Shown: piece after piece, positions 6,621-55,337 of the stretch
How positions within the stretch are numbered: position 1 is the first letter of the stretch
Layout: the number at the start of each line of letters is the position of its first letter
IMG/VR virus record: IMGVR_UViG_3300034093_002316
Location: 1-64,000 of that record
From: a virus
Length of the DNA: 64,000 nt
Strand: one strand, 5' to 3'
Position numbers and translations under genes: made by a program
Notes under the pieces: model-generated
Told to the model about the DNA's origin: nothing
Seen by the model: only the letters and a program-made list of their open reading frames with translations
Databases searched by the model: none

Positions 6621-9308
6621 TTATAATACTGGACCTCCAGCTGGGGGTTGTGTTGATGCTCCAACAGATCTGCTAGATCGATATACTATATCTTTAATTT
6701 TAATCGTCGGATTTACTGTTAATGTTGATGAATAATAAACGACAAAATAAATTAAACAATACATACCTTGTCTATCACTTATAGTAGTATTTGAAAAATT
6801 TAAATTCAGTACTCCGGATGATATTCTATTAGAAGTCGTAGTACCTAGGTTAGTTGTTGATAAAATAGAAAAATTAGAAAATACATCATAATTCGTTGTT
6901 AACTGGCTTGATTGATATAAACTTCCTGTAGCAATATAATGTCTAATTGTTAAATCAGGAATACTACTTCCTCCAGCACTGTTGTCAATTTCAATATTAA
7001 ATGAACATTGTATACTAGTTTCACCAGGCAATAAAAATGTATGAAATAAACTACCAGTTATACCATTTATTTCACCATTATCTATAGTTTGTCCTGCAGC
7101 AGAATATTCAGAGGTATCGTAATATAGTAATCTACCGATATTTAATCCATCTGCATATTCTGCATTTGAATTAAATAATATATTACCATTATTCACTGCA
7201 ATAAATGATGATGCAGTTACATCGCCATCTGCAGTTAAATAAAATCCACTTGATGAAATTTCTAAATTACCATTACTTCCGGAAATATATTGAGATGTAG
7301 GATCTCCAAAGAAAAATGTTTCGGTATGTACATCTAATTCAGATGGAATAGTTGAATAACGAAAATAATTATTAGCATCTCCGTATAATTCTAATCCAAC
7401 GCCACTATATGGTACGCCTCCTTTAGTACCTGTAGATCCAGCTAGTGCAGAACCACTCCATAATAAAAATCCAGGAAATCCTGCAGCAAATCCTTCATAT
7501 CCTAATGAACGAATAAATCCAGTATTTTTATATCCGGATATAGCTACACCCGATTGCAGTGAATCTGCTACATACAAAGAACCGGTAAGCATAGAATAAT
7601 CGCCATCGATATATCGATTACCGCCTTCCCAATTTTTATTATAAACATAACTAATTTGTCGACTTTTTTCTCCGTTAACGTTGTAATATTCGGCTTTGAA
7701 TGTAAGTTGATTATCAGATTTATGTGCCGTTGGTACTAAGGTTCTTAATCTAGTATAATTAGGAGAATAACCAGAATCGTTGTCCGTTGTGGTTCTAACA
7801 TCAGCTACTTCCCAAGTTCCAGATTCTACTACTAATAACAATGTCCCAACGCCTTCTCTGTCAGTTTCAAAATTAAAAACAACATCATCATATCGTTGAG
7901 AATTTTGAGATATCGTTAATTCGCCAAGACGTTTACCAAAACGTACGGGAAACTGTTGATTGAAATAGTCCGTTGCATCATAATCAAATGCACTACCGGA
8001 CATGTATAAAGATAATTTCGCAGTGCTAGAGCCTGATAAAGCACCTATAGCATCGATAGTAATTTTGTATTCAGAATTTGCAATAAAAATGCCGTTGTAT
8101 GTAGATTTTATTTTTGCAATGCTTACAGAATTTTTTGCAGATATATCTACGTTATTTTGTATTTGCATTGCATTGTTTAATGATGCAGTTGACCAAGTTA
8201 ATGTCGGTGCTGTTGCTGATATACCATTAACATAAGAAACACCTTCCCAATATGTATTAATAACACTTTGTGTTGTAAATGATCCAATGCTAACATCCGG
8301 AAATAAAGATGAAGTGTCAGAAACAAATATTTCCGTTTCTTCTAATTCAACATCATTTAACAATTCCCATGTACCAACAGTACCGTTGTTGTTCATGAAA
8401 ACTTTTATTCGAGAAACATCTCCAGTTGCCGGGTCTAATCCTTTTATTTGCATCAAAGCAAATGATTCAGAATTTTGCGTAGCAACATAAGTAGGAGTAG
8501 CTTCGTATGAAATACTATATGCAGATGCATCAAAACTAGAATATGTATGTCCCGATATGCTTTGGCTGCTATAAACTGTATATTCTGTATCTAACAATGC
8601 TACGGTTGAACTTAATATCTTTTTAATCGTACTCGAGTACGTAGTTGTAGATGGAGTGTATGCAGGGTTAGGAGCAGGATTTACTGGTGCAGTAACAGTT
8701 AAAGTACCAGTAGACATATCATTAGTAAATAATCCTCCCGCTAATTCAACAGCTGGTTGACCATTATATGTAAAATACTTAACCGTGCCGGTGTTATACG
8801 TAGGAAATTGTCCGCCGGTTCCATATGTTCTAGCTAATTGAACTCCTACTTGTTCTTGTACAACTAAAGTTGGAGTAGTTTCAAAAATTATTTCTGATAT
8901 GTTCGATACGTTAGGATTAACTGGTACACTTCTGCTCCATTTAACATTAGGTTTACCTTGCCATTCTGCGGGAGCATTAACTGCTTCGCCTATCAATGTT
9001 ATAGTGCAATTTCCAGGAGACGTTTCATCATAAACGTAAATCGCTACAACCCTAGATTTATCGTCATCTATGTAATTGATAACTTCAGAATAAATAGGAT
9101 TGCCGTTGTAATCTAAAACTTCTATGTTTAAAAAACTACCAGGACGTAAACTAGTTGGATTTCCTCGTAATTTAAAAAGATTTTTTCCGGAAGTTAATCG
9201 CGTAGGAAATTCGGATATTTGAAAATAATCCGGAGATGTCGATGATGTATCTTCAAACCAAACCGGAACAAATTGTAAACCTTTATAAACCGCTTCTTTA
9301 CGTTTCAT
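6621..9308 (-). CDS. Large virion structural protein, probable tail fibre or baseplate-attached protein
   Basis: 895 residues rich in Ser, Thr, Tyr and Gly and predicted to be mostly beta strand, typical of fibre or receptor-binding proteins. The first about 120 residues look like a small beta domain that attaches to the virion. The remainder has sandwich-like stretches (for example TAKLSLYMSGSAFDY near residue 435) and a C-terminal region of alternating hydrophobics ending in a Gly/Pro tail (TQPPAGGPVL). No enzymatic motif or chaperone domain is seen. It has its own late-type promoter and stands apart from the baseplate block, next to recombination genes. The structural role is inferred from composition and length. 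Confidence 0.75.
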   Translation of the reverse strand: MKRKEAVYKGLQFVPVWFEDTSSTSPDYFQISEFPTRLTSGKNLFKLRGNPTSLRPGSFLNIEVLDYNGNPIYSEVINYIDDDKSRVVAIYVYDETSPGNCTITLIGEAVNAPAEWQGKPNVKWSRSVPVNPNVSNISEIIFETTPTLVVQEQVGVQLARTYGTGGQFPTYNTGTVKYFTYNGQPAVELAGGLFTNDMSTGTLTVTAPVNPAPNPAYTPSTTTYSSTIKKILSSTVALLDTEYTVYSSQSISGHTYSSFDASAYSISYEATPTYVATQNSESFALMQIKGLDPATGDVSRIKVFMNNNGTVGTWELLNDVELEETEIFVSDTSSLFPDVSIGSFTTQSVINTYWEGVSYVNGISATAPTLTWSTASLNNAMQIQNNVDISAKNSVSIAKIKSTYNGIFIANSEYKITIDAIGALSGSSTAKLSLYMSGSAFDYDATDYFNQQFPVRFGKRLGELTISQNSQRYDDVVFNFETDREGVGTLLLVVESGTWEVADVRTTTDNDSGYSPNYTRLRTLVPTAHKSDNQLTFKAEYYNVNGEKSRQISYVYNKNWEGGNRYIDGDYSMLTGSLYVADSLQSGVAISGYKNTGFIRSLGYEGFAAGFPGFLLWSGSALAGSTGTKGGVPYSGVGLELYGDANNYFRYSTIPSELDVHTETFFFGDPTSQYISGSNGNLEISSSGFYLTADGDVTASSFIAVNNGNILFNSNAEYADGLNIGRLLYYDTSEYSAAGQTIDNGEINGITGSLFHTFLLPGETSIQCSFNIEIDNSAGGSSIPDLTIRHYIATGSLYQSSQLTTNYDVFSNFSILSTTNLGTTTSNRISSGVLNLNFSNTTISDRQGMYCLIYFVVYYSSTLTVNPTIKIKDIVYRSSRSVGASTQPPAGGPVL

Positions 9309-15328: not shown

Positions 15329-15865
15329 TTACCAATCAACTAATACTAAATTTCCGGTCCACATCATGACATTATCGGATCGAAAATCTAAATCTAAATC
15401 AAATTCCGGTATTCCTATTCTATTAACATCAGTTTTAAGCGCATTTAAAAAATTATCTAGTAGCGGATCTATAGAATCTGTTTCATCTAAAAAATCAAAT
15501 ATGGAAACTTCTCCGCCTTCACTTCTTGCAAACACAGCAAAGTCTTGCATAAACAAATCTATTTCACGTTTTGTGCGCGTTGGTAATTCCGTTGCATTTG
15601 CCATGATATACATGTTTTTACCATCAACGTAATAAACAGGAATAAACGTAGTAAATTCAGTATAACGATTCACGATATTACGTGCTACTTCATATTCATC
15701 TTGTTCTTTAGTAATTTTAAATACTTTGTCTTCATCGTTAATTTCATAAACTCGACCATTATCGCCTTGTGCTATAAGTTTGAATTGTTTGTTTTGAATT
15801 TTATCCAAACAACGACGAATATCCGAATCAGACATTTCTCGCAATAATTGTTTTAAACGTATCAT
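15329..15865 (-). CDS. Truncated protein-kinase-fold protein with L-x-E N-terminal tag (2)
   Basis: 178 residues. After the tag MIRLKQLLREM, residues 30-52 show a kinase N-lobe: glycine-loop-like IAQGDNGRVYEI (G34, G37, V39) and the VFK lysine (K50). A hinge-like YIMANATELP follows (86-95). Residues 158-165, LDLDFRSDN, match the catalytic loop pattern D-[LF]-[KR]-x-x-N, and the chain stops at VLVDW (174-178), the position of the DFG-type metal aspartate seen as DW in phosphotransferase families. The rest of the C-lobe is absent. Known kinases are 250 residues or more, so this is a minimal or non-catalytic form. It lies between tagged gene 1 and the LamG tail gene. Confidence 0.75.
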   Translation of the reverse strand: MIRLKQLLREMSDSDIRRCLDKIQNKQFKLIAQGDNGRVYEINDEDKVFKITKEQDEYEVARNIVNRYTEFTTFIPVYYVDGKNMYIMANATELPTRTKREIDLFMQDFAVFARSEGGEVSIFDFLDETDSIDPLLDNFLNALKTDVNRIGIPEFDLDLDFRSDNVMMWTGNLVLVDW

Positions 15866-34528: not shown

Positions 34529-35149
34529 ATGATACGACTAAAAAACATCTTAGCAGAAAACATGTTGAGATTTGGACCAAAGAATTTGTCTGAATCGGAG
34601 AAAAGAAGATTAAGAAATTTAAATTTATTAACAGAAGCTACATTGAAAGATTTAGATTCTACAGGAATGGCTTCGGCTCAAAAGTTTTTTGCTGCTGAAT
34701 ATGAAAAAGGCACAAATGGGCCACAATATGCTACTGCGAATCTAATATATGTAGCACATAACACTGGTAAGCCTGAAATAGGAATGAAATATAATATCAA
34801 CATTTTTAAACTAATGTCGATTAATTTTGGAGTTGCTCAATTTATAATTCCAGCATTCTACGGAATGATAGATTATACTTTGAATTACGGACTTACCGAT
34901 GCGGGCGATTTGCAACTTGGTATCGATCCTACGTATGCTAGCGAAAAAACTGTGGCAGACGCAGCATCTAGTATTAATTTCTATTATGAAGATATACTTC
35001 CGGAAACGTTAACAACTCATTTCAACGGACAAAAAGCAAAATTAGCTACGTCAATTGCAACAACTAAAGCAGCACAAAATTTTGCAGCATTAGGACCATT
35101 ATTAAAAGGTTCTGCGAAAACTGCATATGATTTAATAGCTGCTAGTTAA
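34529..35149 (+). CDS. Tagged protein of the ENMLRFG family, copy A (3)
   Basis: 206 residues. The N-terminus MIRLKNILAENMLRFGPKNL carries the tag and an L-x-E site at residues 8-10, with a second such site further in (NLLTEATLKDL). The mature part after it is alpha/beta: AQKFFAAEYEKGTNGPQYAT, NIFKLMSINFGVAQF and a C-terminal helical end (LGPLLKGSAKTAYDLIAAS). Copy B, directly downstream, is a clear paralogue. The ENMLRFG-x-KNLSES stretch recurs in Bacteroidota phage proteins. Function unknown; probably delivered or packaged with the head, as inferred from the tag. Confidence 0.85.
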   Translation: MIRLKNILAENMLRFGPKNLSESEKRRLRNLNLLTEATLKDLDSTGMASAQKFFAAEYEKGTNGPQYATANLIYVAHNTGKPEIGMKYNINIFKLMSINFGVAQFIIPAFYGMIDYTLNYGLTDAGDLQLGIDPTYASEKTVADAASSINFYYEDILPETLTTHFNGQKAKLATSIATTKAAQNFAALGPLLKGSAKTAYDLIAAS

Positions 35150-35180
35150 ATAAAATAAATAAATCTAAAAAGGAACAACA

Positions 35181-35858
35181 ATGAACAAAACTTTATTATC
35201 AGAAAATATGCTTCGATTTGGAACTAAAAATTTATCTGATTCTCAACAAAAACAATTGATCGTTAAATCTATCATGGAAACGATCAATCAAAACGGCTTA
35301 AGTTATGAAATCCGTAAACAATTAAGAGAACAAAATTTATTGTCAGAAGCTACATTGAAAGATTTAGATTCTGCAAACATGGCGACAGTTCAAAAGTTTT
35401 TTGCTGCTGAATGGAAAAAATATACAAATGGTCCACAAATGTCTACCGCAAATTTAGTATATGTAGCACAGACAACTGACATGGAAAAAGCGATGAAATA
35501 TTTTATTAAAATTTTTAAAATGATAAATGTAAATTTTGGAGTTATTAATTTTCCAATTACAGCATTTTATGGATTCGTAGATTATTTTCCAAACACCGGA
35601 CTTTCAGATTCAGGAGATTTGCAACTAGGTATCGATCCATCAGGAGCTAGCGAAAAAACCGTAAAAGATGCGGCAAGTACTATTAATTTCTATTATGAAG
35701 AAATACTTCCCGAGACTATAACAACTCATTTCAACGGACAAAAAGCTAAATTAGCTACAGCAATTGCATCTGCAAAATCATCAGCAAATTTTGCAGCATT
35801 AGGTCCAATGTTAACGGGTGCCGCTAAAACCGTATACGATTTGATAGCTGCTAGTTAA
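35181..35858 (+). CDS. Tagged protein of the ENMLRFG family, copy B (4)
   Basis: 225 residues, a tandem paralogue of the preceding gene: the stretches SEATLKDLDSANMATVQKFF, FKMINVNFGVINFPI and LQLGIDPSGASEKTVKDAAS align along the full length, with a 30-residue insertion after KNLSDS. The tag here is shorter (MNKTLLSENMLRFG, L-x-E at residues 6-8), with a second L-x-E at QNLLSEATL. A start with AAAAAGGAACAACA suggests a good ribosome site. The pair is followed by a strong terminator, so the two form a bicistronic unit. Confidence 0.85.
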   Translation: MNKTLLSENMLRFGTKNLSDSQQKQLIVKSIMETINQNGLSYEIRKQLREQNLLSEATLKDLDSANMATVQKFFAAEWKKYTNGPQMSTANLVYVAQTTDMEKAMKYFIKIFKMINVNFGVINFPITAFYGFVDYFPNTGLSDSGDLQLGIDPSGASEKTVKDAASTINFYYEEILPETITTHFNGQKAKLATAIASAKSSANFAALGPMLTGAAKTVYDLIAAS

Positions 35859-35882
35859 TAAAATTAGAATTAAAATAAGAAA

Positions 35883-35911
35883 AGCTAACCCGAAAGAGTT
35901 AGCTTTTTTTT
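35883..35911 (+). terminator. Rho-independent terminator (probably bidirectional)
   Basis: Stem AGCTAAC (35883-35889) with GTTAGCT (35898-35904), loop CCGAAAGA, followed by a run of eight T; A-rich on the other side, so it can also end the convergent minus-strand gene. Confidence 0.85.
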
Positions 35912-35927
35912 ATGTTTGATATTTCGA

Positions 35928-36482
35928 TTACGGTATCGTACACATAGGACAATCTAAAGATGTATCATTTTCATCATATGATAAAGTAGTCCAAATGCCA
36001 TCTAGTTTTTCAATAAAAATCATATGATATATATAAGTACATCCTTGATATTTAGTCATATGAAATTCTACAATTTCAATTGATTTTATACCATCTCGAT
36101 TAATATCGAAATGAATCTTTTGCAAAAGATGATGCGAGTCATTTAACAACCAACCAATTGGAGCTTTGTCTTCTGTTAAAATTTTATCTTTAACATATTC
36201 AGTACCGGTTGATATAATTAAATTAGTATCTGGAATTGTTTGCAAGTTTCCATCATTCCATTTAATAAAACGATCGTACGATTCAATCATTCCATTTTTA
36301 GTGTCGATGTCAGAAATAACATTAATTCGATTTGTAGACATAATATATCTAGTTTGCAAACCGGTATAATCAATTCCATATTTATCCAACAATTTATTTT
36401 GAGATTGAGTTAGTGATGTATAACACTGCGCATTGCCAATTGAAGAAAATGCAATCGTAACAATAAAAATTAACTTTTTCAT
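35928..36482 (-). CDS. Secreted protein of unknown function
   Basis: 184 residues with a signal peptide (MKKLIFIVTIAFSSIGNAQ, cleavage after about residue 18). The exported part is a mixed alpha/beta domain (IGWLLNDSHHLLQKIHFDIN; RDGIKSIEIVEFHMTKYQGC). A Cys pair at the end (LDCPMCTIP) may bind metal or form a disulfide. It has a promoter with TAGGAA at -35 and TATATTTA at -10, a 39-nt leader, and lies alone on the minus strand between tagged genes. It may act in the periplasm, for example against competing phages. Confidence 0.8.
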   Translation of the reverse strand: MKKLIFIVTIAFSSIGNAQCYTSLTQSQNKLLDKYGIDYTGLQTRYIMSTNRINVISDIDTKNGMIESYDRFIKWNDGNLQTIPDTNLIISTGTEYVKDKILTEDKAPIGWLLNDSHHLLQKIHFDINRDGIKSIEIVEFHMTKYQGCTYIYHMIFIEKLDGIWTTLSYDENDTSLDCPMCTIP

Positions 36483-36521
36483 AGCCGTAAAATTTAAATG
36501 AATAACTCTCTTATTATACTA

Positions 36522-36552
36522 TAAATATAATGATTATTTCGATTGTTTCCTA
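36522..36552 (-). promoter_or_regulatory. Early-type promoter, TAGGAA class
   Basis: -35 TAGGAA (36547-36552), 17-nt spacer, -10 TATATTTA (36522-36529); 39 nt to the ATG of the secreted protein. Confidence 0.6.
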
Positions 36553-36575
36553 ATTTATATAAAAAAACGTAACAG

Positions 36576-36583
36576 ATATTTAT
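36576..36583 (+). promoter_or_regulatory. Late-type promoter motif ATATTTAT (plus strand)
   Basis: AGATATTTATTATAAATAAT, 21 nt before the ATG of the 667-residue tagged gene and divergent from the secreted-protein promoter. Confidence 0.5.
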
Positions 36584-36604
36584 TATAAATAATACTACAT
36601 CATT

Positions 36605-38608
36605 ATGGCAAAAAATATCAAGCTAAAAGATTTATTAAATGAGCAAGATCCTAGAATTGCTGGATATAAGACTCCTTCGGATAGATATCTTAGTAAAACT
36701 GGACCTGATGCACAAGGAAATTATCAAATCGATCCTAGATTAGCTAAAGTAACTGCGGCCGCAACGGCTCGTGATTCTACAAACGTAGTACCAGCAAAAT
36801 TACCAAAAGCTGCCATAGAACGTACTTGGATAGATGATATTGAAGATGTTGCACAAACTATACATGATGAACACGGATATCTTTACGATGATGAAGCTAC
36901 AGCATTAAAAGCTATTAAAACTGTAAAAGATTTGGAACAATGGGAATACTTAGAACAGTATTTTGAAGATACTTATTTAAAACCATTGAATGAATATTTA
37001 AACTATTTTTTAAATAATGAACCAGTACGTAAAGATTTTGAAAACTGGCTGAAATCTAGAACATGGATGCCAGAAGATGTTAAGAAAAAATACATCGAAG
37101 CTATTAGTTTTGCAGAATTCGAACCTAGAGTCTTTGGCCCAGGAGGTATTGGTCAAGCAATGTGGCAAAACTTTGGCAAACCTACGGTAACATTGGATGA
37201 TATTCATGAAATAATAAATGAAATAGCATTCTGGGGCATGTTTATACCTGTAGTAGGATGGTTTGTGTCTGCAGGATTTTCCGTATTAAGTGGAGTAATG
37301 TATGCTGCAAAAGGCGATTTATACAATGCCGGAATGCAAGGAGTATTTGCAATGCTTCCAGGCGTTCCTGGATTGATATCAAAATTAGCTAAGTCCGGCG
37401 TAAAAATAACTCAAACTGGAGTTAAACAATTATCTAGTAAATTAAGTACCATGTCTAAAGGCATGGATATCGCATTAACTGGAACTGAAATTGCAGCAAT
37501 AAAAGCTTTAAATTCACCAGCTGTACAACAAGAAATAGTCGGAGCGTTTGCAAAAGATCTTTCAAAGCAATTGGCAAATCCATCCGGAGCTTCTAAATTT
37601 ATAAATGCATTTAAAACTTCAACAAAAGCCGCAAAAACTAAATTAATTGGAGGACTTACTAAGGCTTCTTCAAATCCATATGTACAAAAAGTACTTAATT
37701 TTGTATATGAAAATGCAGCCATGATGGGTGCATATACAGCAGCCGATAAAGCTCTTCGAATAGCAAATCGAGTAACTGATACGGAAATGAAAACATTGTT
37801 TCAAAATGCGTCTAACGAATTAGCTGATTATTTTAGATACAACGTAAAAATTACCGGCCGCGGCATAAAACTTGAAAATGCCAATACAAATTTAAAATTA
37901 ACTAGCATACTAGCAGTCAACAATGTAACAACGTTACATGAACAAAAAGAATGGAGTTACGATGATGCAGTAAACAAAGCTAAAAAAGATCGTGCTGCGG
38001 CAAAGGCAGAAGAAAGTATTGTTGGTATAGATGATATAATATATTGGGGCACATTTGCGGCATATGGCATAGGAGCGTATGTTACATATAAAGCTGGAAA
38101 AGGACTTTTAAAATCATTGTTAGGGGCTAGTGCTAAACAAGGATGGGGGTTATTATGGGAAAATGGATTCAACTTCAAAAAATGGAGAGATGCCCTAACT
38201 AGTAAAAAAGGTATAGCTGCTTTAGAAAAATATGGCATCACGTTAACTAAAACGGAATTTGAAAACATGACACGCGCGTGTGTGGTAAGATCACAAGCAG
38301 AAATTGATTTAGTATTAAGCCGCGTAAGATCAGGAGAATTAAATCCAAAAGAAGCAATTAAACTGTTACGTAATTTAACTCCAGAAACTTTAGAAAAAGA
38401 ATATTTAGCTTTATACGATATATACAAAACATCGACACCAAAAGCGACTGCAGCAACACCTACCGCAACTGGCGCGCCAGCCGGTGCCACCGCTGCAGCT
38501 GCAACTCCAAAAGGTATGCCAACGGGAACAAAATTATCGATTAGTCAAGCAGCAGCATTTAGACAAAATCCTAATTTAACTTGGAGACAATTAAGAGATA
38601 ATTATTAA
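36605..38608 (+). CDS. Large tagged protein with membrane-active, pre-toxin-like segment (5)
   Basis: 667 residues. Tag MAKNIKLKDLLNEQDP (L-x-E at 11-13). Residues about 203-258 form a Gly/Pro-rich hydrophobic block (IPVVGWFVSAGFSVLSG; KGDLYNAGMQGVFAMLPGVP; GLISKLAK) that closely resembles the pre-toxin (PT-TG) region found ahead of polymorphic toxin domains. A second hydrophobic block lies at about 475-506 (IIYWGTFAAYGIGAYVTYKA). Near residue 618-645 is a Thr/Ala/Pro linker before a short helical end. No known enzymatic motif is seen. If packaged through the tag, it could be ejected and act on the host membrane. It ends 3 nt before the stop of the convergent gene, with a tail-to-tail overlap of 4 nt. 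Confidence 0.8.
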   Translation: MAKNIKLKDLLNEQDPRIAGYKTPSDRYLSKTGPDAQGNYQIDPRLAKVTAAATARDSTNVVPAKLPKAAIERTWIDDIEDVAQTIHDEHGYLYDDEATALKAIKTVKDLEQWEYLEQYFEDTYLKPLNEYLNYFLNNEPVRKDFENWLKSRTWMPEDVKKKYIEAISFAEFEPRVFGPGGIGQAMWQNFGKPTVTLDDIHEIINEIAFWGMFIPVVGWFVSAGFSVLSGVMYAAKGDLYNAGMQGVFAMLPGVPGLISKLAKSGVKITQTGVKQLSSKLSTMSKGMDIALTGTEIAAIKALNSPAVQQEIVGAFAKDLSKQLANPSGASKFINAFKTSTKAAKTKLIGGLTKASSNPYVQKVLNFVYENAAMMGAYTAADKALRIANRVTDTEMKTLFQNASNELADYFRYNVKITGRGIKLENANTNLKLTSILAVNNVTTLHEQKEWSYDDAVNKAKKDRAAAKAEESIVGIDDIIYWGTFAAYGIGAYVTYKAGKGLLKSLLGASAKQGWGLLWENGFNFKKWRDALTSKKGIAALEKYGITLTKTEFENMTRACVVRSQAEIDLVLSRVRSGELNPKEAIKLLRNLTPETLEKEYLALYDIYKTSTPKATAATPTATGAPAGATAAAATPKGMPTGTKLSISQAAAFRQNPNLTWRQLRDNY

Positions 38609-48249: not shown

Positions 48250-48271
48250 ATCTCTCTCTTTTTAATTTATA

Positions 48272-48302
48272 TAAATATAATGATTTAATCTGTGCGTGTC
48301 AA
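48272..48302 (-). promoter_or_regulatory. Early-type promoter, TTGACA class
   Basis: -35 TTGACA (48297-48302), 17-nt spacer, -10 TATATTTA (48272-48279); 22 nt to the ATG at 48249. Confidence 0.75.
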
Positions 48303-48315
48303 CCGAATAGTCAAC

Positions 48316-48474
48316 TTATTTGTGACTGTCTAATACGTACATCATGAACGTCGTATTCGGATACTTTGCTTTGTATATTGTATAGTCTACATAGCTTATT
48401 GCTAATGCTATCGCCGTTACTACTAAAGCTGCTACTACTAATTTGATTTTTACTTTTCTGCTTAATTTATACAT
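48316..48474 (-). CDS. Small single-TM early protein
   Basis: 52 residues: basic start MYKLSRKVKIK, a transmembrane stretch LVVAALVVTAIALAISYV and a short external tail (DYTIYKAKYPNTTFMMYVLD). A positive-inside start and one helix suggest an inner-membrane peptide. It has its own TTGACA-class promoter. Function unknown; small early membrane peptides often act on host membrane complexes or block superinfection. Confidence 0.7.
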   Translation of the reverse strand: MYKLSRKVKIKLVVAALVVTAIALAISYVDYTIYKAKYPNTTFMMYVLDSHK

Positions 48475-48497
48475 CTCTCTATCTTTTTAATTATACT

Positions 48498-48528
48498 TAA
48501 ATATAATGATAATAAGCACACGTGTCAA
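48498..48528 (-). promoter_or_regulatory. Early-type promoter, TTGACA class
   Basis: -35 TTGACA (48523-48528), 17-nt spacer, -10 TATATTTA (48498-48505); 23 nt to the ATG at 48474. Confidence 0.75.
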
Positions 48529-48554
48529 GCATTTTGCTAACTTTTTTTTACAGT

Positions 48555-48604
48555 GCAAAGCCGACGCCTTTCAGCGCCGACTTGCTATGTTGAGAGATAT
48601 GTTT
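48555..48604 (-). promoter_or_regulatory. 3'-end module: anti-leader sequence plus GC hairpin
   Basis: Just past the stop of the AAA+ gene the transcript reads AAACATATCTCTCAACATAG, complementary to the GAGAGATATG leader of the early genes, followed by a GC-rich hairpin (48555-48585; loop near 48568-48573, arms GCAAGTCGGCGC and GCGTCGGCTTTGC). Instead of a U-tract, an A-tract follows that belongs to the next promoter. It is probably the transcript end of the ATPase gene. Confidence 0.55.
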
Positions 48605-48606
48605 GC

Positions 48607-49557
48607 TTATTCTGCTGCGATGATTTGTTCTGCTATCATCTCCTCTGCGTTATCAAATCCCATCGCACATATTCTTGCCGCTTTGATAAAGCTTCTGAGG
48701 TTAATGTCAATGCCGGCATACTTCGCATCCAACGACTTCATTATCTCTAATGCCTTTTGCTTAGCCGCTAACGGAATGCTACGCTCCATACCTTCCATCA
48801 ATTGCTCCATTCGAGTAAACATTTGCGTCGTGTTCATTGTGATATCCGACACGAAGCTTCTACTACGGATAGCCTCATCCAAGCGGCTTTGGTGGATGTT
48901 GCTGATGAATATGATGCGTCCTGTAAATTCGAAATGCGGTGGGATCGGATCGCCATACTCATCCTTAAGCGGCTTCGAAGAGATATAAGATATCTTGCGA
49001 GTGTCATAGCTGTCTAATGCCGCTTTAAGAATATTCACAGCATCGTCATCTTTGAATACCGAATCACAGTCATCCAATACGATTATCTTATCCGAGTTTT
49101 GATATAGCGTAATAAACAATCCGGCTGCGGTAGCACGACCCTTAAAGTGTACGAAGTCTTTGGACTCTGACAAACCTAATCCTTTAAGTGTCTCCTTAAC
49201 CAAATGCGTCTTACCTACGCCAGCCATACCCGTAATTACTAAGGAAGGTTGGATACCTCTACCTACCATCTTTGTGAGGCGCTCCAAGTTGCCAAACATC
49301 ACTTGCGGATCTCTTGACTCTAATACTGTCATGAACGACATCTTTGCTGGAGCCGTGCTAGCTGGAGCCGTGCCGGCTTCTTTGCGGGACATTCTAGTTA
49401 CTCTGCCGGAGCCGCTAACAACTAATACTTCCTTGTTCGCCTCAGCATTTCTTAACTGAACTGGACGGATTGCATCCTTCGGTGCAAACTCACCTGTCTT
49501 AACATTCTTTGCAAATAACTTGCCTTTTACTCTTACTGGTTCAAATACATTTAACAT
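48607..49557 (-). CDS. AAA+ ATPase
   Basis: 316 residues. Walker A GMAGVGKTHLVKE (about 109-121), Walker B KIIVLDDCDSVF (about 156-167), sensor 1 RIIFISNIHQSR (about 214-225) and an arginine-rich RLDEAIRSRSF (about 225-235) typical of the finger region. The N-terminal 90 residues are a separate low-complexity or beta module (VLVVSGSGRVTRMSRKEAG). Similar ATPases occur in several T4-like phage families near early genes; their partner is unknown. It carries its own early promoter and its mRNA ends in an anti-leader module, so its expression may be tightly limited. Confidence 0.85.
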   Translation of the reverse strand: MLNVFEPVRVKGKLFAKNVKTGEFAPKDAIRPVQLRNAEANKEVLVVSGSGRVTRMSRKEAGTAPASTAPAKMSFMTVLESRDPQVMFGNLERLTKMVGRGIQPSLVITGMAGVGKTHLVKETLKGLGLSESKDFVHFKGRATAAGLFITLYQNSDKIIVLDDCDSVFKDDDAVNILKAALDSYDTRKISYISSKPLKDEYGDPIPPHFEFTGRIIFISNIHQSRLDEAIRSRSFVSDITMNTTQMFTRMEQLMEGMERSIPLAAKQKALEIMKSLDAKYAGIDINLRSFIKAARICAMGFDNAEEMIAEQIIAAE

Positions 49558-49579
49558 ATCTCTCTCTTTTTAATTTATA

Positions 49580-49610
49580 TAAATATAATGATTTTTTTGG
49601 TACGTGTCAA
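49580..49610 (-). promoter_or_regulatory. Early-type promoter, TTGACA class
   Basis: -35 TTGACA (49605-49610), 17-nt spacer, -10 TATATTTA (49580-49587); 22 nt to the ATG at 49557. Confidence 0.75.
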
Positions 49611-49645
49611 CCGTTTCGGTAACTTTTTTTAAGAAAAGTTTCTGG

Positions 49646-49900
49646 CTATTCTTCGCCAGCTAACTCCTCATGTAGATCCGTTAACCACTGCCGATCCATC
49701 ATCTCTTGCTTATATGTCTTAACACAATACAATTCGAATGGAGCAATTGGATCCTCTGATTTGAACTCGACATGGAATTCATCCCATACCTGACGCGACT
49801 CTTCGAAGGTTGCTAATACATCTGCCGGAGCTATGTCTAATTCATACTGCTGAACGATCCCTCCGGTTAACTCTCCCTTTACTGTTACATTTACTTTCAT
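49646..49900 (-). CDS. Small acidic early protein
   Basis: 84 residues, net acidic. MKVNVTVKGELTGGIVQQYE then LDIAPADVLATFEESRQVWD and EFHVEFKSEDPIAPFELYCV: a small beta sheet plus helix. It ends in a helix (DRQWLTDLHEELAGEE). No family recognised. Own early promoter and leader GATAAGAGATATG. Confidence 0.7.
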   Translation of the reverse strand: MKVNVTVKGELTGGIVQQYELDIAPADVLATFEESRQVWDEFHVEFKSEDPIAPFELYCVKTYKQEMMDRQWLTDLHEELAGEE

Positions 49901-49925
49901 ATCTCTTATCTCTTATTATTATACT

Positions 49926-49956
49926 TAAAGATAATGATAATAACCGTGCGTGTCAA
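49926..49956 (-). promoter_or_regulatory. Early-type promoter, TTGACA class
   Basis: -35 TTGACA (49951-49956), 17-nt spacer, -10 TATCTTTA (49926-49933); 25 nt to the ATG at 49900. An A-tract and GTTTGCAAAATGC precede the -35. Confidence 0.75.
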
Positions 49957-49994
49957 GCATTTTGCAAACTTTTTTTAAACTTTTTTTTTTTTGT

Positions 49995-50107
49995 AGTCAG
50001 GGAGGACTCGAACCCCAATCTCTCGGCAAGACTTAATGTATATTCTCGGGTCATGACTCCTCACCTTTTACTGCTCACCAAGCGCGTTACCAATTAGCTA
50101 CCTGACT
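49995..50107 (-). tRNA. tRNA-like element (atypical, possibly degenerate)
   Basis: Read on the minus strand: acceptor arms AGTCAGG and CCTGACT pair over 7 bp, positions 8-9 are TA, a D-arm-like GCTAATTGGTAACGC follows, and the T arm is GGGGTTCGAGTCCTC. The element is 113 nt, about 25-35 nt longer than a normal tRNA, and no standard 17-nt anticodon arm is found. A possible CAT triplet stands in the central part. No CCA is encoded. This may be a tRNA with an insertion, a decayed tRNA, or a tRNA mimic. A tRNA search program and a fold would decide. Confidence 0.45.
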
Positions 50108-50240
50108 GTAATAAGAGGCTTCGTCAACGGTGCACTGCGATAAGGTCTTCTGAAATTATCTGTGTACAAAGTATCCACCTCTTACACGTCCGCAAGGGCC
50201 AACATCGCTGCTGACCCGGGGACTATGTTGAGAGATATGT
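50108..50240 (-). ncRNA. Structured RNA candidate downstream of an early gene
   Basis: 133 nt between the acidic early gene and the tRNA-like element. On the minus strand it opens with the anti-leader ACATATCTCTCAACATAG, then TCCCCGGGTCAGC and GGCCCTTGCGGAC, and a 7-bp pair TAAGAGG (50178-50184) with CCTCTTA (50112-50118). It looks like a folded 3' untranslated region or small RNA; no open reading frame is supported. Confidence 0.4.
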
Positions 50241-50684
50241 TTACTCCTCCGTTTGGGTTCCTAACCCGTCATTAACCGACTGCATTATTTCTTCCTCGCT
50301 AGGACCGCAGTCATCGTCTTCTTCGCCCTTCTCCAACTCTACAATGTCATCTGCAGCTTCCTCAACCAATTGGTCCAAAGCGCCGGTGACGTGCTCCATA
50401 ATTTCGTACACATTAACATCGACACGATTTAATTCGATGCGGTTATCCCAATTTAACTCAAACTCCGCGGAACTTAAATCGACCAAGTCGCTGCTGTTAT
50501 AGTCGAGGGCACGTTCGATTTTATTAGCAATTTCCTCAGCAAACTCCGGAGTCAATTTGAATTCCTTCTCGACAACAACTACCGGCTCGATGCTTTGGAT
50601 CAATGCAATAACATTGTCAATGCTTACTACTGAGGTTAACTCCTTTGCTCCCTCTAACTGTGCAATTAAATTTTCTTTTGTCAT
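50241..50684 (-). CDS. Acidic early protein
   Basis: 147 residues with many Glu/Asp. MTKENLIAQLEGAKELTSVV then a helix-strand pattern (KLTPEFAEEIANKIERALDY; AEFELNWDNRIELNRVDVNV) and a highly acidic end (ELEKGEEDDDCGPSEEEI). A DNA-mimic role is conceivable because early phage inhibitors often are acidic, but no family match is evident. Its promoter carries the alternative -35. The stop codon is fused to a downstream anti-leader sequence. Confidence 0.7.
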   Translation of the reverse strand: MTKENLIAQLEGAKELTSVVSIDNVIALIQSIEPVVVVEKEFKLTPEFAEEIANKIERALDYNSSDLVDLSSAEFELNWDNRIELNRVDVNVYEIMEHVTGALDQLVEEAADDIVELEKGEEDDDCGPSEEEIMQSVNDGLGTQTEE

Positions 50685-50707
50685 ATCTCTCTCTTTTTAA
50701 TTATATT

Positions 50708-50738
50708 TAAATTTAATGATTTTTTTGTTCGGTTCCTA
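50708..50738 (-). promoter_or_regulatory. Early-type promoter, TAGGAA class
   Basis: -35 TAGGAA (50733-50738), 17-nt spacer, -10 TAAATTTA (50708-50715); 23 nt to the ATG at 50684. Confidence 0.6.
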
Positions 50739-50757
50739 ATTTTTTAGCAACTTTTTT

Positions 50758-50874
50758 TTAATAAATTACAGGCTCAATAAAGTTACCAATTACCAATTGA
50801 ACTGTGGCATACAATGCCGATACGGTGAACAATGTTACGAAAACTACGTCTACTACTTTTTCTACTCTTTTCAT
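50758..50874 (-). CDS. Tiny single-TM early protein
   Basis: 38 residues: MKRVEKVVDVVFVTLFTVSA then LYATVQLVIGNFIEPVIY. One transmembrane helix with a positive start. Own TTGACA-class promoter and leader AAAGAGATATATG. Function unknown. Confidence 0.65.
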   Translation of the reverse strand: MKRVEKVVDVVFVTLFTVSALYATVQLVIGNFIEPVIY

Positions 50875-50900
50875 ATATCTCTCTTTTTAAATTTATAATA

Positions 50901-50931
50901 TAAAAATAATGAATTAAATAATGCGTGTCAA
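50901..50931 (-). promoter_or_regulatory. Early-type promoter, TTGACA class
   Basis: -35 TTGACA (50926-50931), 17-nt spacer, -10 TATTTTTA (50901-50908); 26 nt to the ATG at 50874. Confidence 0.7.
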
Positions 50932-50959
50932 GCTTTTTTGAAACTTTTTTAAACTTTTT

Positions 50960-51106
50960 TTACTTGAATCGAAACTCGTCTAATTCGGCTTCAACATCTT
51001 TGAGTGCCTGGCCAACTTCATCGTCTTGCTGGAATAAGTCATATGACTCCATGATGTTTCTCAGTTCTCGTACTTTTGCTTCTAATGCTTTTAGTTCTCT
51101 CTTCAT
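50960..51106 (-). CDS. Small coiled-coil protein
   Basis: 48 residues: MKRELKALEAKVRELRNIME, SYDLFQQDDEVGQALKDVEA and ELDEFRFK. Two heptad-rich helices separated by an acidic turn, the shape of a small helical hairpin. No known family. Transcribed with the two tiny genes upstream. Confidence 0.65.
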   Translation of the reverse strand: MKRELKALEAKVRELRNIMESYDLFQQDDEVGQALKDVEAELDEFRFK

Positions 51107-51109
51107 TTC

Positions 51110-51202
51110 TTAATTGTAAAGTTCCACATAAATTAAAGCGTCAATCATCAATTCGGACTGACATATCATCATTCTGATTTCTCTTATTTCCTTTGCTGTC
51201 AT
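51110..51202 (-). CDS. Tiny helical protein
   Basis: 30 residues: MTAKEIREIRMMICQSELMI then DALIYVELYN. Ordinary helix-forming composition, with its start just after the stop of the upstream membrane peptide. Too short for firm assignment. Confidence 0.45.
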   Translation of the reverse strand: MTAKEIREIRMMICQSELMIDALIYVELYN

Positions 51203-51203
51203 G

Positions 51204-51323
51204 TTAAGCCGTTTTAAGTGTGAATACTATTGCCGGGATCAAACCGATAACTCCTAATACATTACCGAATGCTAACATTGTGCCTCCGATTACTGCTACT
51301 GCGAAAATTAATGCGTTTCTCAT
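51204..51323 (-). CDS. Tiny two-TM early protein
   Basis: 39 residues: MRNALIFAVAVIGGTMLAFG then NVLGVIGLIPAIVFTLKTA. Two short hydrophobic segments joined at Gly/Asn form a helical hairpin. Own TTGACA-class promoter 24 nt upstream and leader AAGAGATATG. Small two-helix proteins of this kind can serve as holins, but its early promoter argues against a lysis role. Confidence 0.65.
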   Translation of the reverse strand: MRNALIFAVAVIGGTMLAFGNVLGVIGLIPAIVFTLKTA

Positions 51324-51347
51324 ATCTCTTATTTTTTTATCTATACT

Positions 51348-51378
51348 TAAAGATAATGATAATAACCATGCGTGTCAA
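51348..51378 (-). promoter_or_regulatory. Early-type promoter, TTGACA class
   Basis: -35 TTGACA (51373-51378), 17-nt spacer, -10 TATCTTTA (51348-51355); 24 nt to the ATG at 51323. Confidence 0.75.
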
Positions 51379-51407
51379 GCATTTCGGCAAAAAAGTTTAA
51401 AAAAAGT

Positions 51408-52148
51408 TTATAGGTATTGTTCCAACAATTCGATGCCTGGAAGCGATGCCAATGCCAATTCAGCACCTCTAACTAACTGTCTGGCTCTTTCATTGGTTAC
51501 TCCCATCTCCTCAGCAATCTGATCCATACATTGTGGATACTCCCGTCCAATGCCATAGAATCTGCGTATAGCTTCTTCCTGCTTCGGCTTAAGCTGCGCT
51601 AAGACTCTGTTTAAGTCGTATTGCAAATCAGCCATGTCCCTCGAGGATTTCACGCTATCCGCAGCCAAGTAACGATCCGCATAGGTTTCCTTGTTCTCAT
51701 CATCGCCTACCGGAGTGTGGATACTCTTTGTAGAATACTCTTCGGTTGCTGTGCGATGTGAAGGAATCCTAACCACTCTGGATAAGTCATTGAGTGCCTT
51801 TTGCAATTCGGCTCTGATGTACCACACCGCAAAGGTAATGAATTTGACACCTTTCTCCGGATTGAATCTTTCAGCCGCTTCGAAGAGTCCTACATTGCCG
51901 AATGCGATGAGATCCTCCAATGCCAATCCCATTCCTTGATACTGCTTTGCTACTTGAATCACAAAGCGAAGGTTGGCTTCTACCAAGGCATTAACGGCCT
52001 TTCTGTCTCCGGCGGCTGCGGCTCTGCCTAATGTGGTTTCTTGTTCTCTGGTAAGGGCACCAATCTTCTTGGTCTCTTGGATATATCTCAATGTGCTTGC
52101 TACATCCGTTACAATTGCTCCTGTGCTTACGTGAATTTTCTTTGCCAT
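51408..52148 (-). CDS. RpoD-like sigma-70 factor
   Basis: 246 residues with the main sigma-70 regions in order: a 1.2-like N-terminus (TLRYIQETKKIGALTREQET), region 2 (NLRFVIQVAKQYQGMGLALE; DLIAFGNVGLFEAAERFNPE; GVKFITFAVWYIRAELQKAL), a region-3 block (RVVRIPSHRTATEEYSTKSI) and region 4 (QLKPKQEEAIRRFYGIGREY; QIAEEMGVTNERARQLVRG). The DLIAFGNVGL and ITFAVWYIR stretches are those of primary sigma factors that contact core polymerase and the -10. Primary sigmas of Bacteroidota are similar in size (about 285). It is separate from the gp55-like factor. It is transcribed from the promoter in front of the 65-residue gene and so is an early protein. Confidence 0.9.
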   Translation of the reverse strand: MAKKIHVSTGAIVTDVASTLRYIQETKKIGALTREQETTLGRAAAAGDRKAVNALVEANLRFVIQVAKQYQGMGLALEDLIAFGNVGLFEAAERFNPEKGVKFITFAVWYIRAELQKALNDLSRVVRIPSHRTATEEYSTKSIHTPVGDDENKETYADRYLAADSVKSSRDMADLQYDLNRVLAQLKPKQEEAIRRFYGIGREYPQCMDQIAEEMGVTNERARQLVRGAELALASLPGIELLEQYL

Positions 52149-52189
52149 AACTCTCTTTTGTTTTTAAATGAATAACTAATTGCAACCGA

Positions 52190-52387
52190 CTACTTGCCGG
52201 TTGCTAAGAACTTAAATGATACTCTCGTCGGCTTCTCAACCTTCGCCCGGTACTCTGCGTTGCGTTCTCCTTGACGAATAGCTTGTGCTACTGTGGCAGT
52301 GTTGCCTCCGGTTCTTGCATCTTTACTCATTTGAGCCATTACTGCTCCTTGTCTTTCGAATCCTGAATTTCTTCCTTTTTTTGCCAT
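52190..52387 (-). CDS. Small basic protein upstream of the sigma factor
   Basis: 65 residues, strongly basic: MAKKGRNSGFERQGAVMAQM, SKDARTGGNTATVAQAIRQG and ERNAEYRAKVEKPTRVSFKF. Likely nucleic-acid or polymerase binding, on composition only. It shares the transcript with the sigma factor gene and its promoter is of the TTGACA class. Confidence 0.65.
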   Translation of the reverse strand: MAKKGRNSGFERQGAVMAQMSKDARTGGNTATVAQAIRQGERNAEYRAKVEKPTRVSFKFLATGK

Positions 52388-52411
52388 CTCTCTTATTTTT
52401 TAATTATAATA

Positions 52412-52442
52412 TAAATATAATGATTATTTCTGTGCGTGTCAA
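52412..52442 (-). promoter_or_regulatory. Early-type promoter, TTGACA class
   Basis: -35 TTGACA (52437-52442), 17-nt spacer, -10 TATATTTA (52412-52419); 24 nt to the ATG at 52387. It also serves the RpoD-like sigma gene. Confidence 0.75.
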
Positions 52443-52460
52443 GCATTTTCGAAACTTTTT

Positions 52461-52670
52461 TTAAGCTTCGATAATATCGGATTCCTGGAACTCGCGGATG
52501 TCAAAACTAACCATCTCATCCAATTCCTCTTCATCATAGCCAAAATCCTCAGCTACCAATTCGCGTGTTTTTTCCTCAGCGTCTATTTCGCTAGCAGCTT
52601 TAATGTAATACAAACTAGAATATTCAACGCCTTCAACATCGGTAACAATTACTACAAATAACTTTTTCAT
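52461..52670 (-). CDS. Small acidic early protein
   Basis: 69 residues: MKKLFVVIVTDVEGVEYSSL, YYIKAASEIDAEEKTRELVA and EDFGYDEEELDEMVSFDIRE. A ferredoxin-like beta-alpha-beta order (strand, helix SEIDAEEKTRELV, acidic end). No family match. Own TTGACA-class promoter. Confidence 0.7.
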   Translation of the reverse strand: MKKLFVVIVTDVEGVEYSSLYYIKAASEIDAEEKTRELVAEDFGYDEEELDEMVSFDIREFQESDIIEA

Positions 52671-52695
52671 ATATCTCTCTTTTTAAATTAATACT

Positions 52696-52726
52696 TAAAT
52701 ATAATGAAAATAATAATGCGTGTCAA
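52696..52726 (-). promoter_or_regulatory. Early-type promoter, TTGACA class
   Basis: -35 TTGACA (52721-52726), 17-nt spacer, -10 TATATTTA (52696-52703); 25 nt to the ATG at 52670. Confidence 0.75.
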
Positions 52727-52744
52727 GCATTTTGCAAACTTTTT

Positions 52745-52975
52745 TTAATCTTTTTTTATGCCGTAACGCTTATCATACTGTTCACTGTCATACACATCAG
52801 CCGCTACCTCAGCTTCCGTCTCAACCATATAAGCTAAGCAAGCAATGATATCCTCAATCTCAAAGCCATCCATTAATGCCTGGCGAGTTAAGTTTTTCGC
52901 AGCTACGGCTAAATCATTTTGGTAAATACGATTTGTTACACTTGCAAATCTGTCTAATACATTAATGTCTCTCAT
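52745..52975 (-). CDS. Small early protein, helical
   Basis: 76 residues: MRDINVLDRFASVTNRIYQN, DLAVAAKNLTRQALMDGFEI and EDIIACLAYMVETEAEVAAD. Helical, with an acidic face and a basic tail (YDKRYGIKKD). Unknown family. Own promoter. Confidence 0.7.
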   Translation of the reverse strand: MRDINVLDRFASVTNRIYQNDLAVAAKNLTRQALMDGFEIEDIIACLAYMVETEAEVAADVYDSEQYDKRYGIKKD

Positions 52976-53000
52976 ATCTCTTTCTTTTTTTATTAATACT

Positions 53001-53031
53001 TAAATATAATAAATAAAACGATGCGTGTCAA
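53001..53031 (-). promoter_or_regulatory. Early-type promoter, TTGACA class
   Basis: -35 TTGACA (53026-53031), 17-nt spacer, -10 TATATTTA (53001-53008); 25 nt to the ATG at 52975. Confidence 0.75.
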
Positions 53032-53050
53032 GCATTTTGCTAACTTTTTT

Positions 53051-53341
53051 TTAACTTATTTCAACACATTCAAAATACACACCTTCCGCCAAAGCCAAAT
53101 TAAACGTCGTGTCATCTACGTCAATAATCAATTCCAATAAAAACTCATCGTCAATTTGCTTATCCCAATCGTCACTTCCCTCAATCCATTCTACTAACTC
53201 CGTATTACTATAACAATATTCGGCGAATCTCCTTCTCACTTTTTTCAACAAATCCAATTTGTCTTCTGCGAACATTTCTATTCCGCTTTCTACTACTCCA
53301 CCTCCAAATGCGTAACCAATTTCCAATTTAAATTCTCTCAT
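53051..53341 (-). CDS. Small acidic early protein
   Basis: 96 residues: MREFKLEIGYAFGGGVVESG, IEMFAEDKLDLLKKVRRRFA and EWIEGSDDWDKQIDDEFLLE. Beta-helix-beta order with acidic residues clustered in the centre. No family recognised. Its -35 is TAGGAT rather than TTGACA, one of the alternative class. Confidence 0.7.
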   Translation of the reverse strand: MREFKLEIGYAFGGGVVESGIEMFAEDKLDLLKKVRRRFAEYCYSNTELVEWIEGSDDWDKQIDDEFLLELIIDVDDTTFNLALAEGVYFECVEIS

Positions 53342-53365
53342 ATCTCTTATTTTTAAATTAATACT

Positions 53366-54130: not shown

Positions 54131-54540
54131 GCAAAATCCAAAAAAAGTTTGAAAAAAGTTTCGAAAAGGAGTCCCGGGAATAAGAGAGAGAAACCCAGGA
54201 CCCCATTATCAACACAGTGCCTCAACACTGCCTTACCTAACCAACCGATCCGCCGGGAGTGTCTTTCGAGCACCATGATCCCGGACCCTGTCGGTTTATT
54301 TGAGAGATATGTTTTCATACAAAGGCCCGGAGGTGTTAGCTTGTGGCTTTTCCCTCGGGAGTGCGTAGCTTGTGGTTACCGGGCCTAGGTTCCATGTGAT
54401 CGACGCTCAATACCCGTACCCGATATCCGGAGGCACTCAAAGACTAATACGACACACTTACCAATGTCTGATCCTTAAGGTCGCTCTCTTACGGCATTTG
54501 GTTGGATCAACCTTCCTTCTTATTTACACTTATATAATAT
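54131..54540 (-). ncRNA. Structured non-coding region
   Basis: About 410 bp with no credible gene but many pairings: AGGCCCGG (54323-54330) with CCGGGCCT (54379-54386) enclosing two direct copies of TAGCTTGTGG (54337, 54366); CCGGGAGTG...CACCATGATCCCGG around 54253-54283; and, on the minus strand, GTCCTGGG with CCCGGGAC near 54168-54199. A copy of the anti-leader (AACATATCTCTCAA on the minus strand) lies at 54300-54314. It could be one or more structured RNAs, such as a long leader or a tRNA-like RNA. The evidence is pairing only; no promoter of the early class is found at the right end. Confidence 0.4.
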
Positions 54541-54543
54541 GAA

Positions 54544-55273
54544 ATCTAAAAATGAATTCCAACCGAATCCAAAAATAAATCTAAAAATCGTCTAAAAATA
54601 ACGGCGCGTTGGACTAAAAATAGACCCGGGATGGTGCCGGTTTCGTCTAAAAATACGAGTCGCTATAGCTAGGTCAGCAAATGTAACGTGCTTATAGTGC
54701 ATCTTCGTCTAAAAATCAAAACCCCATTTCGTCTAAAAATAGCCTGATTTCGTCTAAAAATAGCAGGGAGGAGCGGATATGCATCTAAAAATAGCCTGAT
54801 TTCGTCTAAAAATAGGACTCGCTATATATAGCATCTCCATCAGTAGTTGCACTATAACACATATAGCACATCTATATACCGAGACGTATAAGCTAGCGAT
54901 CACGTAGATCCATCAGTATAGCTACCGTTAATACACCTACACACAACACTAAAAATGGCAATCCTAATCCAGACATATGATTCGTTTTCTATAATATAAG
55001 GAAACCCATCTAAAAATCAAACCTGGAATTGAACTAAAAATCGTCTAAAAATAGCCGGAACGGTTGGAATTGTGGATTCCCTTTTACACTGCGTATACGT
55101 GCGTCTAGGCGGCTTGATATATACGTATATACCGTGCCTTGTAATAAAGAGTCTATGCCCCATGGAAACATTGTATTGGGAGGGTGATATATATAACCAA
55201 TCTGGACTACCTATACTAGACACAATTTCGTCTAAAAATAGACTGCCATATCTGCGTATTTTAATCTAAAAAT
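54544..55273. repeat. Array of TCTAAAAAT repeats (possible iterons)
   Basis: About sixteen copies of [GA]TCTAAAAAT and close variants, all in one orientation, at 54544, 54567 (variant), 54579, 54590, 54612 (variant), 54645, 54707, 54731, 54752, 54783, 54804, 55008, 55032 (variant), 55043, 55230 and 55264. Many are preceded by TTTC, giving TTTCGTCTAAAAATAG. Some are close (11 or 21 nt apart), others scattered. This is like iterons or protein-binding sites at replication origins or centromere-like loci. The gene-free surroundings fit such a site. Confidence 0.7.
54893..54976 (-). CDS. Possible tiny membrane peptide
   Basis: 27 residues: MSGLGLPFLVLCVGVLTVAI then LMDLRDR. One hydrophobic helix and a charged end. 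It lies between clusters of the TCTAAAAAT array. Too short to be sure; supported only by a clean start, stop and helix. Confidence 0.4.
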   Translation of the reverse strand: MSGLGLPFLVLCVGVLTVAILMDLRDR

Positions 55274-55337
55274 AATCTAGAGATGCTGAGGGATTCTCGT
55301 TACTAGACACGTGGTCGATTGCGGTGCTGGGTACTAG

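Follow-up and report, generated by a model that had tools for sequence, protein, structure and literature searches.

The window analysed here, a stretch of 64,000 nucleotides, is part of a 67,929-base IMG/VR virus record and carries a cluster of short repeats upstream of a phage sigma factor gene. The features of the locus are as follows.

51408 to 52148, minus strand: phage sigma factor gene (phrog_351), a syntenic landmark downstream of the array, 2.4 kb away
54165 to 54526, minus strand: structured non-coding RNA, roughly 360 nt long, its putative start set by the promoter and its end by an intrinsic-terminator-like hairpin
54168 to 54204, minus strand: terminator-like hairpin, with the CU loop TTTCTCTCTCTTATT at 54179 to 54193
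54243 to 54297, minus strand: RNA module D, GACRGGGTCCGGG..GTGCTCGAAAGACAC..CCCGGCGGATCG, three helices with a GAAA loop
54322 to 54387, minus strand: RNA module A, a covarying 8-bp stem around AACCACA...AACACC
54529 to 54564, minus strand: putative class-II host-type promoter reading left, GGTTGGAATTC at 54554 to 54564 and TATTATATAAG at 54529 to 54539
54545 to 55273, plus strand: array of 16 CTAAAAAT units, 13 of them exact TCTAAAAAT
54546, 54581, 54592, 54614, 54647, 54709, 54733, 54754, plus strand: starts of CTAAAAAT units 1 to 8
54785, 54806, 54949, 55010, 55034, 55045, 55232, 55266, plus strand: starts of CTAAAAAT units 9 to 16
54893 to 54976, minus strand: open reading frame in the array region for a 27-aa membrane peptide, MSGLGLPFLVLCVGVLTVAILMDLRDR
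54985 to 55023, minus strand: weaker second site resembling a class-II promoter (GGTTTGATT..TTATATTATAG), putative, upstream of the 27-aa frame
55125 to 55310, no strand assigned: conserved block at the right array end, containing the last two units; minus-strand motifs GTGTCTAGTA..GGTTATATATATC..GGGGCATAGACTCTTTATT

The array and its putative border promoter

The original prediction of about sixteen units in a single direction agrees with our count, in which every copy lies on the plus strand. Exact TCTAAAAAT occurs 17 times in the whole 64-kb window against 2.99 expected, and shuffled sequences contained at most 8 copies and never 17. The form TTTCGTCTAAAAATAG is confined to the array within the 67.9-kb record, with four exact copies and one carrying a single mismatch. 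Start-to-start gaps between the 16 units are 35, 11, 22, 33, 62, 24, 21, 31, 21, 143, 61, 24, 11, 187 and 34 nt, and thus include both the 11- and the 21-nt pair spacing described earlier. The description of the 730 bp as gene-free needs qualification: the region is mostly non-coding, but the unit at 54949 lies inside the membrane-peptide frame, and the adjoining stretch at 54165 to 54526, which lay outside the region first described, encodes a conserved structured RNA. The array itself is confirmed as real and is stronger than first described.

The genome contains host-type promoters of two classes. The first, TTGACACGCAT-TTATCTTTA, is found at early genes; the second, GGTTGGA-TTATATTTA/TATATTATA, is referred to here as class II. 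The promoter-like sequence at the left border of the array, GGTTGGA-TATATTA, belongs to the second class and has the array directly upstream, with one unit sitting in its spacer; like the RNA behind it, it did not feature in the original prediction. In relatives its boxes keep a constant offset of 26 to 28 bp, and a GGTTGG box is found near the left array end in 20 of 26 arrays. The border is AT rich, with a GC content of 25% in the 100 bp at 54501 to 54600; this stretch, a possible counterpart of the AT-rich unwinding region beside iterons, coincides with the promoter. What follows the promoter depends on the relative and is either the structured RNA or a small membrane gene.

The phage is T4-like and probably has a host in the Bacteroidota, the host being suggested by the form of the promoters and by weak protein similarity to a Flavobacterium phage. 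A T4-type replisome is present, with PolB, a gp32-like protein, a DnaB-like protein, RecA and an AAA clamp loader among the families listed. The only sizeable plus-strand genes in the otherwise nearly one-directional genome lie at 34529 to 38608 and include one for a 667-aa protein without a PHROGs match.

Conservation of the array in related phages

With the sigma factor gene as the query, 48 related loci were collected, among which nearly all that were sufficiently long had a CTAAAAAT cluster in the same place and direction, down to about 62% sigma identity; in the IMG/VR relatives this place is upstream of the phage sigma gene. The array is thus conserved in dozens of related T4-like phages, as judged by comparison of their sequences, and it extends from close to moderately distant relatives. 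Several loci are nearly identical (L009/L010/L011, L020/L021, L024/L025 and L007/L045), and the counts given here use reduced sets, which still share ancestry. Random scatter of the motif at similar density, which would have spoken against the original prediction, is not what the genomes contain: in a scan of 23 whole records, the motif was almost restricted to the cluster in array-bearing genomes, and in one 100.8-kb contig, 12 of 13 copies fell inside 425 bp. Complete genomes are few among the relatives. In the near-complete 160-kb genome G003, the array is the only clear 9-mer cluster and coincides with the largest gene-free stretch.

Arrays in relatives extend over 0.3 to 0.9 kb with 10 to 16 units, and the consensus of 294 pooled units is TT[CG][GA]TCTAAAAATA[GA]. 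Orientation was uniform in the 26 arrays, with 291 forward and 0 reverse units. Adjacent spacings concentrate at 11 to 12, 21 to 23 and 30 to 36 bp. For a period near 11.5 bp the phase concentration R reaches 0.54, whereas the null values go no higher than 0.25; since the 26 arrays share descent, however, fewer independent events underlie these figures than their counts suggest. The units are under selection, with identities at unit versus other positions of, for example, 0.97 versus 0.73, 0.98 versus 0.84, 1.00 versus 0.91 and 0.88 versus 0.73 in pairs of relatives. Single units have been gained or lost between relatives, although units are better conserved than the intervening DNA. A more distant clade (L040 and L042) has repeats of a variant unit, TATTTTTCG, in the equivalent position, a pattern expected of sites that coevolve with a single binding protein. 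Direction, spacing and unit conservation all fit selection by a sequence-specific DNA-binding protein.

The array is retained where the neighboring small genes differ between relatives, and its region holds further conserved boxes: of 22 arrays, 18 contain CTAGCTATA and about 12 a GTTC..GAAC palindrome. The array of L009 has about three copies of the former box, there as CTAGCTATACNGAGTAA, while that of L007 is interrupted at about 15600 to 15810 (array orientation) by a gene for a small acidic protein, preceded by a promoter-like sequence of its own. The block at the right array end is 77 to 80% identical to L007 and L009.

A pattern scan of all IMG/VR returned 32 contigs, most of them relatives of this phage and the rest unrelated short repeats, and no such array was present in the isolated distant relative Flavobacterium phage immuto. 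Among 43 matches in genome contigs, several were regular simple repeats and only L134 (CAIUZU010000197.1), a contig binned with a Helicobacteraceae MAG, clearly belonged, and it belonged to this phage family; a spread of the array to hosts or satellites was rejected on these grounds.

A structured RNA beside the array

The minus strand of 54165 to 54526 encodes, on the evidence of covariation, a new modular structured RNA that was previously undescribed. In the alignment of relatives the loops are fixed and the stems variable. Compensatory changes were found in 8 of 8 pairs of module A, in 31 cells compared to 10.3 in shuffles, with 97.9% of cells paired and a covariation score of 0.955 versus 0.309 after shuffling, and every slid version of the stem collapsed. 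For module D, 14 covarying cells were found versus 4.9. Covariance models of each module give no more than one match in any genome, next to the array, and they also match members outside the training set (L012, L016, L030 and L035). The RNA lies at 5564 to 5890 in L007, at 6828 to 7090 in L086 and at 8497 to 8680 in L024. No Rfam family scored above the gathering threshold for 54165 to 54526, and when the flank and the array were folded as single sequences, nothing stood out (z from -0.62 to 0.15), so that the RNA is recognized only from the alignment. In L016, a tRNA-like sequence with a CAT anticodon was read by eye inside the RNA cassette, on the gene-strand flank of the array.

The loop TTTCTCTCTCTTATT of the terminator-like hairpin is conserved, and its complement corresponds to the purine-rich leaders (AATAAGAGA and AAGAGAGAGA) of early genes just downstream, at 48260 to 53351 on the minus strand. 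In G003, all 15 gene-strand 9-mer matches lay within 12 nt before a start codon compared to 0 of 2 antisense matches. In three genomes the median duplex energies for genes with host-type promoters were -9.2, -7.5 and -11.0 kcal/mol versus -1.6 to -2.5 kcal/mol for other genes, the loop-leader energies beat 40 of 40 shuffled loops in each, and the strongest sites were concentrated in the 6 to 8 kb just downstream of the RNA. The raw number of loop/leader matches did not exceed that of shuffled purine-rich motifs, while the concentration before start codons and the duplex energy both went beyond the shuffled controls. Since purine-rich leaders make chance matches easy, we treat the pairing of the CU loop with early-gene leaders as a lead.

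In L036, L037, L038 and L043, the array is present but there is no CU hairpin and no match to the covariance models, which indicates that the array is not merely the control region of that RNA. The array occurs more widely than the CU-loop RNA and persists with different small genes, and a platform with a function of its own therefore fits better than a control region for one RNA.

The array as a candidate replication origin

Our conclusions all build on comparative sequence analysis. The most likely reading, which we hold tentatively and at somewhat less than even odds, is that the array is a replication origin, or one of several, of this T4-like phage lineage. The array would serve as a conserved platform of direct, co-oriented and helically spaced sites for a sequence-specific protein of phage or host origin, which would occupy the units in phase along a single helix face. 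The platform would be fused to the host-type promoter reading out of the left array end, and transcription from this promoter through the AT-rich edge may help to open the DNA or supply a primer. An initiator is our best guess for the protein that binds the array. The likeness to iterons proposed in the original prediction stands insofar as the putative protein sites are directional, helically spaced and conserved. As in iteron origins, there are at least three direct repeats in the same orientation with helical phasing; the cognate Rep initiator, usually linked, is what was not found. Rep3_N was absent from 7 related records, and no known initiator family was seen among the flanking proteins scanned or among the 25 families listed in each genome inventory. 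This argues against a known initiator and counts against the origin reading, though the initiator may be a novel one. GC skew likewise counts against an origin and was discarded as support for it, since in three genomes its differences follow gene blocks without a switch at the array.

The next most likely explanation, if a rather unlikely one, is transcriptional control. A phage repressor or activator on the phased units would then regulate the border promoter and thereby the small membrane gene or the structured RNA, perhaps even the whole early block downstream. The setting suits this reading, since an operator or enhancer array serving the border promoter would look alike, with a class-II promoter immediately beside the array in the window and the GGTTGG box recurring near the left end in most arrays, a unit within the promoter spacer, and an RNA or membrane gene to be controlled behind it. 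However, other class-II promoters in the genome lack units, a host-type promoter can fire before any phage proteins exist and so needs no activator, and 10 to 16 sites over 0.3 to 0.9 kb is far above the number in usual phage operators. We rank an origin ahead of a control array. It is very unlikely that the units are themselves a tandem series of weak promoters, or that they act as decoys for the sigma factor of the host. Read on the minus strand, a unit is TATTTTTAGA, resembling the host -7 element TAnnTTTG/A; its TATTTTTA contains TAnnTTTA, just as originally noted, and the variants TACTTTTA and TATTTTTC of other clades match TAnnTTT. The multiple weak starts suggested from this likeness did not hold up, because the units show no enrichment of the preceding TTG that genuine promoters of this phage have at -33 (at a distance of 19 to 21 nt before 2 to 4 of 279 units compared to 3.6 expected). 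In addition, a spacing of 11 bp is too tight for separate promoters and places units within one polymerase footprint, and conservation reaches past the -7 element on both sides.

Lower still in our ranking is an array that acts through DNA shape alone, by phased A-tracts that curve the DNA. A5 tracts do recur in register, and among stretches of equal length in the window the array ranks near the 95th percentile for predicted mean curvature, but stronger curvature is predicted at no fewer than 12 other places there, and curvature would need neither a single strand nor the conserved TC...ATA[GA] flanks. Curvature alone was rejected as a modest effect that is not strand specific. To a centromere-like (parS/parC) or packaging site we give equally little weight. 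Sites of the parC/parS kind typically consist of direct repeats in an array, and there is one array per genome, yet ParB_N, searched singly, was absent from 7 related records, no ParA, ParM or ParR was found among the proteins scanned, and no partition operon was seen beside the array, all of which goes against the binding of a partition protein that the original prediction had offered. The gene set is T4-like with baseplate and sheath, and the overlapping contig ends of G009, which mark this genome as probably complete, fit headful packaging of circularly permuted DNA, with no pac array.

Among known systems, the nearest reported case to our candidate origin is oriE of T4, and the resemblance is one of setting, not of sequence or kind. 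T4 origins share no motif and some use R-loops without iterons, which speaks against our reading, and oriE has 12-nt "iterons" and an early-mode promoter, the role of the repeats being unproven (PMC3016281). Common to both cases are a T4-like phage, a T4-type replisome and repeats close to a promoter able to work without phage factors. However, the direct repeats that we find at oriE (L119, 1903 to 2070) are 24-nt periodic and lie within the coding sequence of gene 5, so that coding constraint could explain them, whereas the array described here spans about 0.7 kb of almost wholly non-coding DNA and has no sequence relationship to them; the oriE repeats were rejected as its homologue for being coding repeats. 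The iteron origins of lambda (ori), P1 (RepA) and R6K (gamma origin) likewise have direct repeats in one orientation at helix-turn steps, with an adjoining AT-rich promoter region. Plasmid and lambda-type iterons have a linked initiator, whereas no linked Rep gene was found here, the 10 to 16 units stand at irregular multiples of one turn over 0.3 to 0.9 kb among other conserved boxes, and a structured RNA follows in most relatives.

The RNA has partial parallels as well. Mycobacterial prophages have RNA-based origins, in which a non-coding RNA beside par sites is required for replication (PMC7157519). There, too, a non-coding RNA gene lies near repeated sites, showing that a phage origin can include an RNA encoded alongside repeats, but those prophages are temperate and have parABS, while here ParB_N was absent from the 7 related records and the phage looks virulent. 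Like GOLLD and ROOL, the RNA described here is a structured non-coding RNA of phage genomes, but it is smaller and modular, has no Rfam match and carries CU-loop hairpins complementary to early-gene leaders. The most far-reaching version of the origin reading, which we regard as a long shot, would unite the elements of the locus: a phased iteron array would be wired to a promoter making the structured RNA, and the CU-rich loop of this RNA would pair with the purine-rich leaders of about a dozen early genes just downstream, so that one locus would set both the start of replication and the shut-off or tuning of early translation.

To our knowledge, the choice of replication origin in T4-like phages outside the Enterobacteria is not established. 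An array that is conserved, directional, largely non-coding and present once in each of dozens of T4-like genomes, probably from phages of Bacteroidota, provides a clean target for origin mapping or DNA pull-down. The adjoining RNA is new and covarying, and it predicts many mRNA targets within the same genome, which makes it directly testable.
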